A stretch of 64,000 nt of DNA from Hyphomonadaceae bacterium. Its GTDB lineage: Bacteria > Pseudomonadota > Alphaproteobacteria > Caulobacterales > Hyphomonadaceae. Below, in pieces: positions 34,130 through 40,477 of this stretch. Made by a program: the position numbers and the translations under genes. The notes under the pieces were generated by a model. That model was not told the origin of the DNA, made no database searches, and saw nothing but the letters and a program-made list of their open reading frames with translations. Numbering within the stretch: position 1 is the stretch's first letter; every line of letters starts with the position of its first letter. The DNA lies in the NCBI GenBank assembly GCA_022844345.1, contig JALHLU010000002.1:351028-415027 (forward strand), written 5' to 3'.

Positions 34130-34516
34130 ATGGCCCAGACCATCTACAAGGTGCTCACCGCCAACCAGCTGGCCGATGTGGAGGCCGGCGGCCCCATGCA
34201 GGCTCCCATCGACATCGATGACGGCTACGTTCACTTCTCGACGTCCCGACAGGTGCAGGAGACGCTCTCGAAATGGTTCCGCGGCCAGAAGGGCTGCGTC
34301 CTCGTTGCGGTGAACGCAGAGACCTTTGGGCTCGACCTCAAATGGGAAGTCTCGCGCGGCGGCGACTACTTTCCGCACGTCTATACGGACGTACGCGAGC
34401 ACCACATCCGGGCCATGTGGCTGCTCGACGAGTTCGATGCCGATGGCGCGCCGCTCGCCCCGGATGAAGTCACGCGCAGCCCCGAACCCTCGACCAAGCC
34501 GGGCCGCAAATCGTGA
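34130..34516 (+). CDS. DUF952 domain protein
   Basis: The 128-aa protein matches the DUF952 pattern: IYKVLTANQLADVEAGG, DGYVHFSTSRQVQETLSKWF, GCVLVAVNAETFGLDLKWEVSRGGDYFPHVY. The family is widespread and of unknown function, and its GDYFPHVY segment is the most conserved. Start 34130 follows GAGGG 4 nt upstream; the frame from 34079 lacks support. The last four bases overlap the pyrD start (GTGA), so pyrD is probably translated by coupling to it. Confidence 0.85.
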   Translation: MAQTIYKVLTANQLADVEAGGPMQAPIDIDDGYVHFSTSRQVQETLSKWFRGQKGCVLVAVNAETFGLDLKWEVSRGGDYFPHVYTDVREHHIRAMWLLDEFDADGAPLAPDEVTRSPEPSTKPGRKS

Positions 34517-35574
34517 GCCTGTTCGATATCGCCACCCGCGCCGTCCGCATCCTCCCGGCCGAAAGCGCCCACCGCTTCACCATCGATGCACTCCGGACCG
34601 GCCTCGCGCGTCCAAAGGCGGAAATCGATGATCCGCGCCTTGCGGTCACCCTGCGCCGCTCCGGCCTCAGACTCCCAAACCCCATCGGCCTCGCCGCCGG
34701 CTTCGACAAGAACGCCGAAGTCTGCGGCCCCATGCTCGCCTTCGGTTTCGGCTTCGTCGAATGCGGCACCGTCACACCGCGCCCGCAACCGGGCAACCCA
34801 CGCCCGCGCCTCTTCCGGCTCACCGAAGACCAGGCGGTCATCAATCGCATGGGCTTCAACAATCTCGGCCTCGGCCTCTTCGTCCGCCGCCTCTCCGCCA
34901 TGCCGCGCGCCGCCGGCATCGTCGGGGCAAACATCGGCGCCAACAAGGACAGCGCCGATCGCATCGCCGACTATGTCGCCGGCGTCAAAGCCGTGTGGCC
35001 CTACTGCGCCTACATCACCATCAACATCTCCTCGCCCAACACGCCGGGCCTGCGCGGCCTGCAGGATCGCGGCGCACTCGAGGAACTGCTCGGCCGCATC
35101 GGCGCCGCCGCCCGCGAGATGAACACCGCCGTGAAGAACCGCCCGCTCTTCCTCAAGGTCGCGCCAGACCTCGACGACAACGCGATCGCCGACATCGCGG
35201 ACGTCGTCCTTGCGCAGGACTGGCTCTCCGGCCTCATCGTGTCGAACACCACGATCGACCGCCCCGATACGCTGGCCTCAAAGCACAGGGGCGAGACCGG
35301 CGGCCTCTCCGGCGCACCGCTGCTGGAAAAATCCACCCGCGTTCTCGCCGCATTCCACGCCATCGTGGGAGACCGTCTCGACCTCATCGGCGCCGGCGGC
35401 ATCGCCACGGCCGATGATGTGATCGCCAAGCTCCGCGCCGGGGCCCAGGCGGTCCAGCTCTATTCCGCCCTGGTCTTTCACGGCCCGCTGCTCGTCCAGC
35501 GCATCAAGGCGGACCTTGTCGCGCGCATGGATGCAGCCGGCGCCACAAGCATCGCGGAACTCGCCCGCTCCTGA
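34513..35574 (+). CDS. pyrD: Dihydroorotate dehydrogenase (quinone), class 2
   Basis: PyrD oxidises dihydroorotate to orotate, with FMN and the membrane quinone pool, in pyrimidine synthesis. The 353-aa protein has an N-terminal amphipathic helix for the membrane (about 1-35), [15 protein letters not shown] and the class 2 catalytic Ser in [15 protein letters not shown], then the FMN-binding end [13 protein letters not shown] and [13 protein letters not shown]. The start is GTG at 34513. It is the downstream gene of a DUF952-pyrD pair. Confidence 0.96.
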
Positions 35575-35602
35575 AGTTCGCGAAACTTTCTGCAACTCCC
35601 AT

Positions 35603-35627
35603 GTAACCAATTCCCGCCCCCTGCGGA
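35603..35627 (+). promoter_or_regulatory. SigF-like ECF promoter GTAACC-N15-CGGA
   Basis: GTAACC (35603-35608) and CGGA (35624-35627) lie 15 nt apart, about 75 nt before the start of the DUF2282 gene. In Caulobacter the SigF promoters are described as GTAACC-N16-CGAA, so the -35 is exact while the -10 differs by one base and one spacer base. A sigma factor of that type is encoded in the same operon, so the site predicts autoregulation. Confidence 0.55.
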
Positions 35628-35701
35628 TTGAGAGGTACGCGGCCCATGCGCCGCCCTCGCGCCCCATTCCGGCGCCGCGAGGTCCATCGAGGAGTCCCCC
35701 A

Positions 35702-36016
35702 ATGACCATCGCAAGATCAGCCGTCTCCGCCGCCCTCATCGGCGCCTTTGCCGTCGCCGGCGCCTTCTCCGCCAGCGCCCAGCAGACCACGATGCCGAAG
35801 AAGCCGCCGACCGCCGCCGAGGCATCCGGCATGGAAAAATGCTATGGCGTCGCCAAGGCCCACCAGAATGACTGCAAGGCTGGCGCTGGCACCTCGTGCG
35901 CCGGCTCGTCCACGGTCGACTATCAGGGCAACGCCTGGTCGCTCGTGAAAGCGGGCACCTGCGTCACCATCAAGACGCCGAACGGCATGGGCTCGCTGAC
36001 CCCGAAGGCCATGTAG
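35702..36016 (+). CDS. bufA: Bufferin-type RiPP precursor (DUF2282)
   Basis: The 104-aa protein has a Sec signal peptide (about 1-26, ending SASA-QQ) and a mature peptide with four cysteines (Cys47, 58, 66, 87) in the DUF2282 pattern [17 protein letters not shown]...CAGSS...[12 protein letters not shown]2282 proteins are the precursors of bufferins, secreted copper-binding peptides modified by a DUF692 enzyme; cysteines are the modified residues. GAGGAG lies 6 nt before the ATG. A tail of 17 residues follows the last Cys. Its DUF692 and DUF2063 partners follow immediately. Confidence 0.9.
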
Positions 36017-36018
36017 TC

Positions 36019-36876
36019 ATGTCGATCCAGCCAGCCGCCGGTCTTGGTCTGAAGCCTCAGCATTACGCCGACGCGCTCAGCGACCCGGCGGCTGGCCTGT
36101 GGTTCGAGATACACCCTGAGAACTATTTCTGCGCGGGCGGCCCACGCCACACGCATCTCACGGCAATTCGCGAACGCCGCCCCTTGTCCCTCCACGGCGT
36201 TGGCCTCTCGCTTGCCGGTGATGAACGGCCAGACCGCCCGCATCTTCTTGCCCTTCGCAACCTCATCGACCGCTATCAGCCGTTCGTCATATCGGAACAT
36301 CTCGCCTGGTCGCGGCGGGCCGGAACCTGGCGGCCAGACCTGTTGCCATTCCCCCGCACGAAGGCCGCCCTCGTTCGCATCGCGAGCCATATCGATGAGA
36401 CGCAGGCCGCCCTCGGCCGCCGCATCCTCATCGAGAACCCCTCGCTCTATCTCGCCCTGAACGGCCACGACTATCCCGAGAAGGATTTCCTCATCGAACT
36501 CTGCGCCCGCACCGGCTGCGGCCTCCTGCTGGACGTGAACAACGTCGTGGTCGGCGCCAACAATCTCGGCTTCAGCGCAGAAGACTATCTCGACAACATC
36601 CCGTCCAACCTGATCGGCGAGATCCATCTCGCCGGCCATGCCCCCGATCCCCATCTCGGCGCCACCCTGCTGGTTGATACGCACGGCGCGCCGGTGTCGG
36701 ACGAAGTGTGGACGCTCTACCAGCGACTGATCGCCAGAATCGGCGCCCGCCCAACCCTGATCGAACGCGACGACAACATCCCCGCCTATGGCGAGCTGCA
36801 GCAGGAACGCGCCCGCGCAGCCAGCATCCTGTCCGCCAGCATCCGTCAGCAGGAGCCCGCCCATGCCGCCGCATGA
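36019..36876 (+). CDS. bufB: DUF692 multinuclear non-heme iron oxidase (BufB-type)
   Basis: MNIO enzymes of the DUF692 family modify cysteines of RiPP precursors with two or three iron ions in a TIM barrel. The 285-aa sequence shows the conserved ligands as His59 (LSLHGVGLSL), His94 (VISEHLAWS), Glu139 (RILIENPS), Asp172 and Asn174 (LLLDVNNV), His203 and His207 (EIHLAGHA), Asp220 and His222 (LVDTHG) and Glu249 (LIERDDNIP). It starts 2 nt after the precursor stop. The substrate is inferred to be the DUF2282 peptide. Confidence 0.92.
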   Translation: MSIQPAAGLGLKPQHYADALSDPAAGLWFEIHPENYFCAGGPRHTHLTAIRERRPLSLHGVGLSLAGDERPDRPHLLALRNLIDRYQPFVISEHLAWSRRAGTWRPDLLPFPRTKAALVRIASHIDETQAALGRRILIENPSLYLALNGHDYPEKDFLIELCARTGCGLLLDVNNVVVGANNLGFSAEDYLDNIPSNLIGEIHLAGHAPDPHLGATLLVDTHGAPVSDEVWTLYQRLIARIGARPTLIERDDNIPAYGELQQERARAASILSASIRQQEPAHAAA

Positions 36877-37651
36877 GGAGCGCGCCTTCTTCGACGCCTT
36901 CGATGCAGCGCTGTCGGGCGATGCCGCCGGGCTGTCTCCATGGCTGGCTGACGACTCCACGGCAGGACTTGCCGTCTACCGAAACACCATCGCCAGCGGC
37001 GCTGTCGACGCCCTCACCGCGACCTACGCCACGGTCGTCATGATGACGGGCGAGGACTGGTTCCGCGCCGCCGCGCGGGAATACGTCCTGGTTCATCCCC
37101 CGCGCGAACCTGCGCTACTCTCCTATGGCGAAAGCTTCGAACACTGGCTCTCGCAGTTTCCACCGGCCGCCGACACGCCCTACCTCGCCGGTATCGCGCG
37201 GCTCGACTGGCTGTGGTGGCAGTCATGGTGCGCCGCCGACGACCAGCTGCTCGACGGCGCAGACCTCGCCGAAATTTCCCCCGCGCAGCTTTCGGAGCTG
37301 ACACTCGGACTTCACCCAAGCCTGCGCATCGCAGCGTTCGCAAACGGAACGCCAGCGCTCTGGCTGGCGCATCAGGCGCCTGCGCGCGGCGGCGAGCACG
37401 TATTGGGACGCGACCCCGAACGCATGGTGTTCGTGCGTCTTGGCGCCCAGGTCGAGGCCCGCCTGATCACAGCGGGCCCGTACGCCTTTCTCGACGCGCT
37501 TTCGCGCGGCGCATCCCTGCTTGAGGCGGGGCAGGCCGCACTCGCGGCCGAACCCGCCTGCGCGCTCCACCAGATCATCGTGACGGGCCTTGCCCTCGGC
37601 CTCTTCACCTGCCTCACGCCTGTCAAACGGAACACGCGCCATGACAACTGA
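36863..37651 (+). CDS. bufC: DUF2063 partner protein of the RiPP enzyme (BufC-type)
   Basis: The 262-aa protein belongs to the DUF2063 family, with an N-terminal DNA-binding-like helical region (MPPHEERAFFDAFDAALSG, LAVYRNTIASGAVDALTATYATVVMMTG, landmark only) and a C-terminal winged-helix-like peptide-binding part (ERMVFVRLGAQVEARLITAGPYAFLDALSRG). In bufferin and related systems it pairs with the DUF692 enzyme and presents the precursor. The start at 36863 overlaps bufB by 14 nt and has AGGAG 6 nt upstream. It contains no signal peptide. Confidence 0.9.
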   Translation: MPPHEERAFFDAFDAALSGDAAGLSPWLADDSTAGLAVYRNTIASGAVDALTATYATVVMMTGEDWFRAAAREYVLVHPPREPALLSYGESFEHWLSQFPPAADTPYLAGIARLDWLWWQSWCAADDQLLDGADLAEISPAQLSELTLGLHPSLRIAAFANGTPALWLAHQAPARGGEHVLGRDPERMVFVRLGAQVEARLITAGPYAFLDALSRGASLLEAGQAALAAEPACALHQIIVTGLALGLFTCLTPVKRNTRHDN

Positions 37652-38087
37652 AACCAGGATCAATCCACTGTACGCGATCCTTCGGGCGCCTGATCGGCTG
37701 GTCCCTGAATGGTTGATCGCCCTGCTCTGCCGCCTCGGTATCGCTGGCGTTTTCTTCCTGTCGGCGCGCACCAAGGTCGATGACGTGATCACGCTGAGGG
37801 AAGAGACGTTCACGCTGTTCACGTACGAGTACAACGTCCCCCTGCTGCCGCCAGACATTGCCGCCTACCTCGCCACTTACGCCGAGCATGGCCTGTCCAT
37901 CGCGCTCGCACTCGGATTGTTCACCCGCATCTCGGCGCTTGGGCTGTTGTTCATGACGGCGGTGATCCAGATCTTCGTCTACCCGGATGCATGGCCGACA
38001 CACCTCGTCTGGGCGGGGCCGCTGCTCTACCTCATCGGCCGCGGCGGCGGCGCTCTGGCGATCGATCGATTGCTCAAGATGCCATGA
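37641..38087 (+). CDS. DoxX family membrane protein
   Basis: The 148-aa protein has four membrane helices (LIALLCRLGIAGVFFLSA, LATYAEHGLSIALALGLF, ISALGLLFMTAVIQIFVYP, LVWAGPLLYLIGRGGGALAID) of the DoxX/SURF4-like type. DoxX proteins often accompany DUF692/DUF2063 pairs, perhaps as a redox or quinone-linked membrane component. The ATG at 37641 overlaps the bufC stop by 11 nt, so it belongs to the same transcript. Confidence 0.88.
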   Translation: MTTETRINPLYAILRAPDRLVPEWLIALLCRLGIAGVFFLSARTKVDDVITLREETFTLFTYEYNVPLLPPDIAAYLATYAEHGLSIALALGLFTRISALGLLFMTAVIQIFVYPDAWPTHLVWAGPLLYLIGRGGGALAIDRLLKMP

Positions 38088-38227
38088 CGTTGGCAGGGAT
38101 ATACACATCCAACTTGCGCCTGACATTGAACGGCGGGATTCCGGAGCGCCTTGGCGATTTCGGCGGGGTGCAGTTATGGTCATCCCTTCTGGGTGCCACG
38201 GTGGGTGGGCATCCGGGTATCGGGGGA

Positions 38228-38773
38228 ATGGCTGTGGAGGCGTTTGACGCGCCCCTCAAGGCTCTCATGCTGAAGGGCCTTGGCGGTGACGCTGCGGCCC
38301 ATGCCGAACTCTTGACCCGCATGGCTGTCCTCCTTCGCCGCTTCTTCGCACGCAAGCTCGGCGCGTCCGACCAGGACGTCGAAGACCTTGTGCAGGAAAC
38401 GCTTCTGGCCATTCACCTGAAGCGGGAGACTTGGGATTCGGCCCAGCCCTTCACGGCGTGGGCCTACGCCATCGCACGGTATCGCCTGATCGACCTCTAC
38501 CGGCGGCGCCGGGTTCGCCGCAGCGAGCCAATCGAGTCAGCCGAAGCGCTCTTTGCGGAAGAGGTTGGCGACAGCTCGGCCGGCGCCGATGTGGAGCGCC
38601 TGCTATCTGAATTGCCAGAGCGCCAGCGCGTCGTCCTGAAGGCGGTCAAGCTCGACGAACTCTCGACAGCGGAAGCTGCTGCCCGTACCGGCATGTCGGA
38701 AAGCGCCGTTAAGGTGAGTGTGCACAGATCGCTGAAAGCCCTGATGAGGAGGGTGCGCGATGAAGACAGATGA
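38228..38773 (+). CDS. sigF: ECF sigma factor (SigF-type)
   Basis: The 181-aa sigma has region 2 (about 45-110: DQDVEDLVQETLLAIHLKRETWDSAQPFTAWAYAIARYRLIDLYRRRRVRR in part) and region 4 (about 125-175, LPERQRVVLKAVKLDELSTAEAAARTGMSESAVKVSVHRSLKAL). Start 38228 with GGGGGA 2 nt upstream is preferred; the ATG at 38084 overlapping doxX would give an unusual 48-residue leader. Caulobacter SigF drives its own operon and responds to chromate, cadmium and copper-type stress. NrsF follows with a 14-nt overlap. Confidence 0.92.
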   Translation: MAVEAFDAPLKALMLKGLGGDAAAHAELLTRMAVLLRRFFARKLGASDQDVEDLVQETLLAIHLKRETWDSAQPFTAWAYAIARYRLIDLYRRRRVRRSEPIESAEALFAEEVGDSSAGADVERLLSELPERQRVVLKAVKLDELSTAEAAARTGMSESAVKVSVHRSLKALMRRVRDEDR

Positions 38774-39398
38774 CCTGATCGCGGTCATGGCGAACGACGC
38801 CAAACCCGCCGCTCGCTTTGCCATACCGCGCCGCCTCCTGCTCGTCGCCGCCGCCACAGCGCTTGCCGCTCTGGCAGTTCTCGTCCCATGGCTGGGCCTT
38901 CGCGATATGGGCCAGGCCGTGGCCGACAGCTCATACTGGATGAAGACGGTCTATACTGCGGCCCTCGGGCTTGGCGGATTCCTGCTCACCGAAAGGCTGG
39001 CGCGGCCGGGCTCTCGATCGGGCCGGGGGGCATTCGTCGCTCTGGCCGGCATCCTGGTGCTTGCGGCAATCGCGGTTGCACAGCTTGCCTCACTCTCCTC
39101 CGCAGAAATTTCCGCCGCCCTGCTCGGCTCGACCTGGGACACATGCCCATGGCGCATCGGCCTGCTTGCGCTGCCAGGCCTGCTCGCTGTTCTTCTTGTG
39201 ATGCGAAGGTTCGCGCCGACGCGGGCCGCGCTTGCGGGCGCCGCTGCAGGCCTGTTCGTCGGAGGGGTCGCAGCGACTGTCTATGGCCTGCACTGCGCAG
39301 AAACGTCGGCCGCATTCACGCTGTTCTGGTACACGGCCGGCATTGCACTCAGCACGATTGCTGGCGCTCTCGCCGGATGGCGAATCCTGCGGTGGTGA
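38760..39398 (+). CDS. nrsF: Anti-sigma factor NrsF (DUF1109)
   Basis: NrsF holds SigF at the inner membrane until metal or thiol stress. The 212-aa protein has about six hydrophobic segments starting near residue 24, and a short cytosolic N-terminus (MKTDDLIAVMANDAKPAARF). Two periplasmic-side cysteines, Cys129 (STWDTCPWRI) and Cys179 (YGLHCAETS), match the spacing of the conserved pair needed for signal response in Caulobacter NrsF (about 131 and 181). The start overlaps sigF by 14 nt. Confidence 0.9.
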   Translation: MKTDDLIAVMANDAKPAARFAIPRRLLLVAAATALAALAVLVPWLGLRDMGQAVADSSYWMKTVYTAALGLGGFLLTERLARPGSRSGRGAFVALAGILVLAAIAVAQLASLSSAEISAALLGSTWDTCPWRIGLLALPGLLAVLLVMRRFAPTRAALAGAAAGLFVGGVAATVYGLHCAETSAAFTLFWYTAGIALSTIAGALAGWRILRW

Positions 39399-39423
39399 CT
39401 GATTGCGTTGGTCGAAAAGTATC

Positions 39424-39453
39424 GAGGCCGGACCCGTCGGCTGGTCCGGCCTC
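39424..39453. terminator. Terminator-like hairpin between nrsF and the UrcA gene
   Basis: An 11-bp stem, GAGGCCGGACC (39424-39434) with GGTCCGGCCTC (39443-39453), closes an 8-nt loop between two convergent genes. On the minus strand it is followed by GATACTTTT. The plus-strand side has no T-run. Probably shared. Confidence 0.65.
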
Positions 39454-39479
39454 GCCTGCGCTGCAGAGAATCGGGGGGA

Positions 39480-39824
39480 TCAGCCGGCAGCGCGGGATTG
39501 GTAGGCTTGGACGACGGTCTGGGAGTCGAACTTGGCGATCGAGTCCTTCATCGTCGTTTCAATGCAGGAGTTCACCAGGCGGCGTTCGCTGACCGACATC
39601 TTGCGGTTTCCGTTACAGTAGCGGCGGACATCCTGCTCGAGCCTGACGAGAAGCGTCCCGGCCTGGTCAACCGTGGTCAGCTCGGTCGGGGAGTAGGTGA
39701 ACTGGAACGCGAAGGGGGCGTCGGGGCCGGGCTCAGCCAAGGCGGGACCGGACACGAAGCCCACGGTGAAGGCGCCGGCGATGACGGCGCAGGCGATCAG
39801 GTTTGTGGAGGCAGTTGTTTTCAT
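39480..39824 (-). CDS. UrcA family protein
   Basis: UrcA proteins are small secreted proteins of unknown role, common in Caulobacterales and Sphingomonads, with two conserved cysteines. The 114-aa protein has a signal peptide (TNLIACAVIAGAFTVGFVSGPALA) and the pattern TLLVRLEQDVRRYC...NSCIETTMKDSIAKF. Start 39824 has GGAGA 7 nt upstream; the longer frame to 40202 lacks support. A candidate promoter lies at 39909-39937. Confidence 0.85.
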   Translation of the reverse strand: MKTTASTNLIACAVIAGAFTVGFVSGPALAEPGPDAPFAFQFTYSPTELTTVDQAGTLLVRLEQDVRRYCNGNRKMSVSERRLVNSCIETTMKDSIAKFDSQTVVQAYQSRAAG

Positions 39825-39908
39825 TGTTATTCTCCAGATGGACACGGCTGTTGCTCTCTCGTCCCTCTCGCCCTGGCACCTGACCACCAGCATCGAAAGT
39901 CGATGATG

Positions 39909-39937
39909 TTTTATTGAATAACAATATGTCTCGTCAA
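39909..39937 (-). promoter_or_regulatory. Candidate promoter TTGACG-N17-ATAAAA
   Basis: The minus strand shows TTGACG (39937-39932) and ATAAAA (39914-39909), spaced by 17 bases in an AT-rich stretch rare for this region. It would drive the UrcA gene that starts at 39824, with a leader of about 75 nt. Confidence 0.5.
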
Positions 39938-39981
39938 GGGTACAAATGGGGCCAGTTGGAGGCGTGGCCCGATGAAGACCC

Positions 39982-40022
39982 CGAAAACAAAGCAAAACGC
40001 CCGGAGCTGACGCCCCGGGCGT
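39982..40022 (-). terminator. Rho-independent terminator
   Basis: The minus-strand stem AACGCCCGG with CCGGGCGTT (39995-40003 and 40014-40022) is followed by a T-rich tail TTGCTTTGTTTT. It lies 26 nt beyond the stop of the second UrcA-like gene. Confidence 0.8.
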
Positions 40023-40048
40023 TCGAAATGAGCCTCGTGGTTCGGCGC

Positions 40049-40351
40049 TTACTTCGCCGCGACGACCAGAGCGGTTTGTGATTCGCGGCCGGCGTAGAGC
40101 CCGGTCGGATCCTGCTTCGCCACTTGGGCGCGCGTATCCTTCAGGCAGGCCAGATGCGTGTAATAGGCGATGCCCACCACCGGGCCGGTCTCTTTGCGGC
40201 AAACCTGCTTCACCGCCTTTTCGAGGCTGGCGACGTAAATTGCCGCTTCCTCGACGGAAACCGGCAACTTGGGCGTCGACACCGTGACAGGGTCAGCGTG
40301 CGCCACCGAGGCCGCAAAGAGGCTGGCGGCGAAAATCATCATACGTTTCAT
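40049..40351 (-). CDS. UrcA-like small exported protein
   Basis: The 100-aa protein has a signal peptide (MKRMMIFAASLFAASVAHA) and a mature core with VSVEEAAIYVASLEKAVKQVC...THLACLKDTRAQVAK. This keeps the UrcA layout of two cysteines separated by about 20 residues and a helical end. Start 40351 is chosen for the signal peptide; the longer frame to 40477 is unlikely. With the preceding gene it forms a tandem pair of similar design, each with its own promoter. Confidence 0.75.
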   Translation of the reverse strand: MKRMMIFAASLFAASVAHADPVTVSTPKLPVSVEEAAIYVASLEKAVKQVCRKETGPVVGIAYYTHLACLKDTRAQVAKQDPTGLYAGRESQTALVVAAK

Positions 40352-40449
40352 TGGTCTATTTCTCCGGGTTGTCGTTTGAACGTGCCTACTCAACCGACCC
40401 TGGAGCGTTTCCCTCTGCACGATTCGTTCGCTATTGTGCAGTTGCGAAC

Positions 40450-40477
40450 AGAATATGCTGCAGCGCACTCCAGTCAA
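40450..40477 (-). promoter_or_regulatory. Candidate promoter TTGACT-N16-TATTCT
   Basis: On the minus strand TTGACT (40477-40472) and TATTCT (40455-40450) are spaced by 16 bases, about 100 nt before the UrcA-like start at 40351. Confidence 0.4.

Follow-up and report, generated by a model that had tools for sequence, protein, structure and literature searches.

The window, i.e. the whole analysed stretch of 64,000 nucleotides, harbours six genes which very probably make up a bufferin operon of the Buf1 type that is controlled by SigF/NrsF. As judged from Caulobacter, on which our reading of chemistry, metal and sigma factor release is modelled, copper would trigger the release of SigF and hence the transcription of bufABC-doxX, and the thiooxazoles of matured BufA would bind copper. 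The locus comprises the gene set, the cysteines and the promoter of such a system, and across genomes the presence of this promoter is linked to that of NrsF. The novelty seen by the original prediction is not supported, as SigF control and the occurrence of sigma factor and NrsF genes in bufferin clusters are already published (PMC3511200, PMC8224329, PMC12452194). While the biology of the locus has thus been described, the comparisons of promoter and NrsF over 102 genomes and of the sigF-nrsF positions are added here. The position of this gene pair at the operon end is the only unusual trait of the locus.

Gene content of the bufferin/SigF block

All six genes are encoded on the + strand and form one tight block extending from 35702 to 39398 (Table 1). 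They had been predicted to overlap or to adjoin each other, and all of them are present at the predicted places. Overlaps are observed for bufB/bufC, bufC/doxX and sigF/nrsF (14 bases in the last case), and bufA and bufB are spaced by 2 bases. The exception concerns doxX and sigF, which do not overlap but are 140 bases apart if sigF starts at ATG 38228. A longer SigF, whose frame extends upstream without interruption as far as an ATG that shares bases with the doxX stop codon, was rejected, as an alignment of seven loci of the genus reveals this stretch to contain indels and to be unconserved as protein.

Table 1. Features of the bufferin/SigF block (positions within the window)
Feature	Position	Strand	Basis or remark
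Putative SigF promoter GTAACC-N15-CGGA	35603-35627	+	first base 99 bases 5' of bufA ATG
bufA, Buf1 (DUF2282) bufferin precursor, 104 aa	35702-36016	+	Pfam, Cys spacing
bufB, MNIO-family (formerly DUF692) bufferin maturase, 285 aa	36019-36876	+	Pfam, NCBIfam NF050167
bufC, DUF2063 partner protein, 262 aa	36863-37651	+	Pfam
doxX, DoxX-family membrane protein, 148 aa	37641-38087	+	Pfam
doxX-sigF gap, 140 bases, without GTAACC site	38088-38227	+	site scan
sigF, ECF sigma factor, 181 aa from ATG 38228 (alternative start GTG 38234)	38228-38773	+	Pfam
nrsF, DUF1109/NrsF anti-sigma factor, 212 aa, Cys129 and Cys179	38760-39398	+	Pfam, alignment
12-pair inverted repeat directly 3' of nrsF	39423-39454	.	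repeat scan

The predicted identities of the gene products are confirmed by Pfam scores which are all above the respective cut-offs: 84.8 bits for DUF2282 (cut-off 22.4), 310.8 for MNIO, 61.4 for DUF2063, 62.6 for DoxX, 53.2 for Sigma70_r4_2 and 194.4 for NrsF (PF06532, cut-off 26.8), the gene of the latter adjoining that of the ECF sigma factor. In addition, BufB passes the NCBIfam bufferin maturase model NF050167 (349.5 bits, cut-off 310) and, with 211.2 bits, stays under the cut-off of 360 of the oxazolin-type HvfB model. BufA, BufC and DoxX do not reach the cut-off of any NCBIfam model. Searching the solved structures with BufB yields nine sequences, the best being 3bww, while the same search retrieves nothing for BufC at E values up to 1 and a single chance-level match for BufA (E 0.48). 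Throughout the host genome (4.19 Mb on 18 contigs), one DUF2282, one MNIO and one NrsF gene score above cut-off. A second NrsF-like stretch of the genome (C11) remains, with 22.3 bits, under it.

As predicted, BufA is a four-cysteine DUF2282 precursor (Cys47, Cys58, Cys66 and Cys87), and inspection of its translation by eye suggests a Sec-like signal peptide. The resulting cysteine spacing of 11/8/21 is found in 136 of 156 precursors, the window's BufA included, followed by 11/9/21 in 12 and 11/7/21 in 4 of them. The idea that the precursor and its 17-residue tail represent a new variant was abandoned. After the fourth cysteine, 65 of 155 precursors carry 16 to 18 residues; the tail of BufA is nearly identical to the 16-residue one encoded on a contig titled Caulobacter vibrioides.

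The two cysteines of the anti-sigma factor, Cys129 and Cys179, are present in 67 and 66 of 68 aligned sequences, respectively, and correspond to C131 and C181 of Caulobacter NrsF, which represses SigF and for which both residues matter (PMC3511200). Since NrsF of the window fails the NCBIfam equivalog model "anti-sigma-F factor NrsF" (NF042994; 179.8 bits over full length, cut-off 300), it is to be addressed as a member of the family rather than as a certified equivalog. In seven loci of relatives (L161, L163, L165, L167, L170, L174 and L175) a second NrsF-family gene adjoins nrsF, resulting in tandem anti-sigma factor genes.

Upstream of bufA, a frame is present at 34513-35574 which we take to be a pyrD-like gene. 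The inverted repeat downstream of nrsF possibly marks the end of the transcription unit; its T-rich tail is located on the - strand and such sites are no commoner than in shuffled sequences. Just past the operon, two small frames are located on the - strand (39480-40202 and 40049-40477) which, as judged by eye, encode secreted-looking proteins of about 100 residues if read from inner Met codons.

The promoter ahead of bufA and the occurrence of NrsF

In Caulobacter, SigF controls CC3254-3257, encoding DUF2282, DUF692, DUF2063 and DoxX proteins, via a promoter of the type GTAACC-N16-CGAA (PMC3511200). Compared to it, the spacer of the putative promoter in the window is one base shorter and one base of the second half differs, so that this promoter is possibly weaker. 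Six loci of the genus with the same layout possess GTAACC-N16-CGGA 97 to 100 bases upstream of bufA.

A DUF2282 protein is encoded by 102 of the 398 genomes available for the order; within the genus, 7 of 14 genomes besides that of the window encode one. For comparison we used 106 loci of the order (the window plus 105), which cover all 102 genomes with some second copies left out, and 55 named loci, giving 161 loci among which three pairs represent the same record under two identifiers. The genes bufA, bufB, bufC and doxX are contiguous and in this order in 144 of the 161 loci, which excludes chance. Of the 106 order loci, 48 encode NrsF no more than 3 kb away from bufA or doxX, as do 11 of the 55 named ones.

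The strict motif GTAACC-N15/16-CGNA, with its reversed form serving as control, is present upstream of bufA in 40 of 48 order loci with NrsF alongside, in 5 of 8 loci with NrsF elsewhere in the genome and in none of 50 loci whose genomes lack NrsF. With a relaxed motif, these numbers amount to 46 of 48, 6 of 8 and 0 of 50, while the reversed control is found in 0 (strict) and 1 (relaxed) of the 106 loci. Counted by bufferin-bearing genome, the strict motif is present in 44 of the 54 NrsF-encoding genomes (and thus missing in 10) compared to 0 of the 48 that lack NrsF; the corresponding Fisher p of 3e-19 overstates independence because the genomes are related. An earlier count over 152 loci including named ones, in which NrsF was scored within the fetched stretch only, had given 42 of 52 with and 7 of 100 without NrsF (reversed control 1 of 52 and 3 of 100). 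The claim that a matching promoter precedes the bufferin operon is supported, and the comparison gives computed support to a joint regulation of SigF/NrsF and the bufferin genes across the order.

In five loci (L042, L191, L215, L216 and L217 from genomes G009, G148, G279, G298 and G316, respectively) a SigF-type promoter is located at bufA while NrsF is encoded outside the fetched stretch, elsewhere in the genome. Control of bufA by SigF in trans is possible there. L215 and L216 are located on short contigs, and in G316 the NrsF gene is about 8 kb off on the same contig.

An attempt to define a SigF regulon from the genome-wide pattern alone led nowhere, as the pattern is not enriched over the host genome (9 sites compared to 31 of the reversed control; in another scan 8 compared to 6). 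Assignment of the promoter at 35603 therefore rests on its position and on the comparison. One further candidate site, GTAACC-N16-CGTA, is located ahead of the host's sole Oxidored_molyb (YedY/MsrP-type) gene on contig C10, starting 97 bases 5' of an ATG (L220:1071-1096). This is as expected because the YedY/MsrP gene of Caulobacter is a SigF target (PMC3511200, PMC8224329). The scan of this 3474-base locus returned two sites, one of them being that ahead of the gene, with an expected mean of 0.38; 8 of 200 shuffled sequences contained two or more.

Position of sigF-nrsF and alternative readings

NrsF is encoded nearby in 59 loci, 43 of which fit the script rule for neighbouring sigF and nrsF. 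In these, the pair is divergent in 27, behind doxX in 7, colinear upstream in 4 and otherwise arranged in 5 cases. Under the relaxed pattern, a SigF-type site precedes sigF in 24 of the 27 divergent loci, 2 of the 4 upstream ones and 4 of the 5 others, compared to 0 of the 7 with the pair behind doxX (strict pattern: 18, 1, 4 and 0; reversed relaxed control: 1, 1, 0 and 0). One of the three divergent misses, L041, possesses GTAACC-N17-CGAA before sigF, so that 17-base spacers go uncounted in this tally. All seven loci with sigF-nrsF behind doxX, originating from six genomes, belong to the genus of the window, where they make up 7 of 9 loci (7 of 161 overall); of the remaining two, one is the divergent L041 and one lacks sigF-nrsF nearby. 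A search for any GTAAC start near the doxX end yielded none in six of the seven loci and, in L040, one GTAACG without a second half.

This distribution speaks for a relocation of sigF-nrsF to the operon end that is specific to the genus. From this position, feedback of SigF on its own gene would run by read-through from the bufA promoter. With somewhat less than even probability, the SigF promoter that once belonged to the sigma/anti-sigma pair was lost in this genus and the pair was moved behind its target operon, its sole SigF-driven expression resulting from such read-through; sigma factor, anti-sigma factor and copper peptide would then rise together as a self-amplifying switch, unlike in the split Caulobacter layout. 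The closed loop of metal stress, sigma factor release and peptide production put forward by the original prediction is plausible, and the layout is more literally that of a loop than in Caulobacter because sigF-nrsF follows the operon which it targets and has no SigF-type site to itself.

For the locus as a whole, we envisage that NrsF, residing in the inner membrane, holds SigF until excess copper (or Cr/Cd) disturbs it via Cys129/Cys179, as suggested by Caulobacter. Free SigF would act on the GTAACC promoter at 35603 to transcribe bufABC-doxX, whereupon BufB and BufC, acting as proposed for their Caulobacter counterparts, would convert the central cysteines Cys58 and Cys66 of BufA to thiooxazoles. 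Modified BufA would finally be exported by Sec and, provided that the metal is the same as in Caulobacter, bind copper in the periplasm.

The bufferin genes may be a SigF target while sigF-nrsF is mainly expressed from a constitutive promoter within the doxX-sigF gap, leaving little feedback, as reported for Caulobacter under Cr/Cd. We hold this to be not far short of an even chance. The 140-base gap itself is in line with it, as is the conservation, in seven loci of the genus, of a TGGCG block and of parts of a GCTA-like block, which may conceivably belong to a housekeeping promoter. Furthermore, Caulobacter sigF shows weak autoregulation under Cr and is subject to a second regulator as well (PMC3511200). 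Yet, simple scans of 35500-39600 reveal neither a sigma-70 consensus promoter nor a terminator-like site on the + strand, and copper strongly induces sigF and nrsF in Caulobacter (PMC8224329). The predicted RNA fold of the gap is not unusual (z -1.33). A more radical option is that sigF-nrsF are chance neighbours exerting no control over the bufferin genes. While the slightly deviating promoter and the lack of genome-wide enrichment would be compatible with it, the confinement of the strict promoter motif to NrsF-bearing genomes and the proximity of NrsF to bufA or doxX in 48 of 106 order loci render it hardly credible.

Alternatively, copper might not be the main target of the peptide, which could instead serve chiefly against a different metal or against oxidative or sulfur stress, with gold, Cr and Cd as candidates. 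The gig operons, which respond to gold (PMC12452194), and the induction of the Caulobacter regulon by Cr and Cd speak for it. The sigF mutant of Caulobacter, however, is reported to be impaired in copper without extra sensitivity towards Cr/Cd (PMC8224329), and the thiooxazoles of bufferins chelate copper (PMC12452194). We thus regard a non-copper role as unlikely. The bufferin operon and the SigF/NrsF pair of the original prediction are supported by the Pfam and NCBIfam matches together with the promoter comparison.

Relation to known systems

The recognition of the DUF2282-DUF692-DUF2063 set as that of copper-binding Caulobacter bufferins agrees with the published regulon and with copper chelation (PMC3511200, PMC8224329, PMC12452194). 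CC3254-3257 of Caulobacter crescentus/vibrioides together with sigF-nrsF (CC3253-3252) share with the window the six gene families, the bufA-bufB-bufC-doxX order, the GTAACC promoter type and the two NrsF cysteines; the precursor tail is nearly alike in the contig mentioned above, and a further common trait is the MsrP-type gene preceded by a SigF-type site. SigF and NrsF of Caulobacter control bufABC-doxX and msrPQ, and copper induces this regulon (PMC3511200, PMC8224329), sigF and nrsF included; in the presence of copper, growth of a mutant in sigF is poor (PMC8224329). In contrast to the window, where the pair follows doxX on the same strand without a SigF promoter of its own, Caulobacter sigF-nrsF possesses one (PMC3511200). 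Moreover, Caulobacter harbours a second SigF-controlled DUF692 operon while the genome of the window contains only one MNIO gene.

The Buf1 clusters with sigma factor and NrsF genes described in the 2025 survey of Antoine et al. (PMC12452194), which also reports copper chelation by thiooxazoles, have components equal to those of the window, and the gig operons of Cupriavidus metallidurans and Legionella are called bufferin clusters there. The captophorins oxazolin, gonophorin and fontiphorin (PMC12668002) likewise rely on an MNIO enzyme and a DUF2063-type partner and are thiooxazole metallophores, but derive from EGKCG-repeat precursors instead of DUF2282 proteins; the class proposed in that paper takes in the bufferins. 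The locus extends a published system of copper buffering to one more genus. Its moved sigF-nrsF pair lends itself as a natural test of whether and how a stress response changes with the place that a sigma factor takes within its own regulon.

Elsewhere in the order, a 281-residue bufferin precursor frame (L198:5397-6239, genome G347, contig C79) is located next to bufBC and a bufA of the usual kind. Its first and last core cysteines occur once each and enclose ten copies of the central Cys-pair module, each resembling an 11-residue sequence. The encoded protein could be a multi-copper bufferin.
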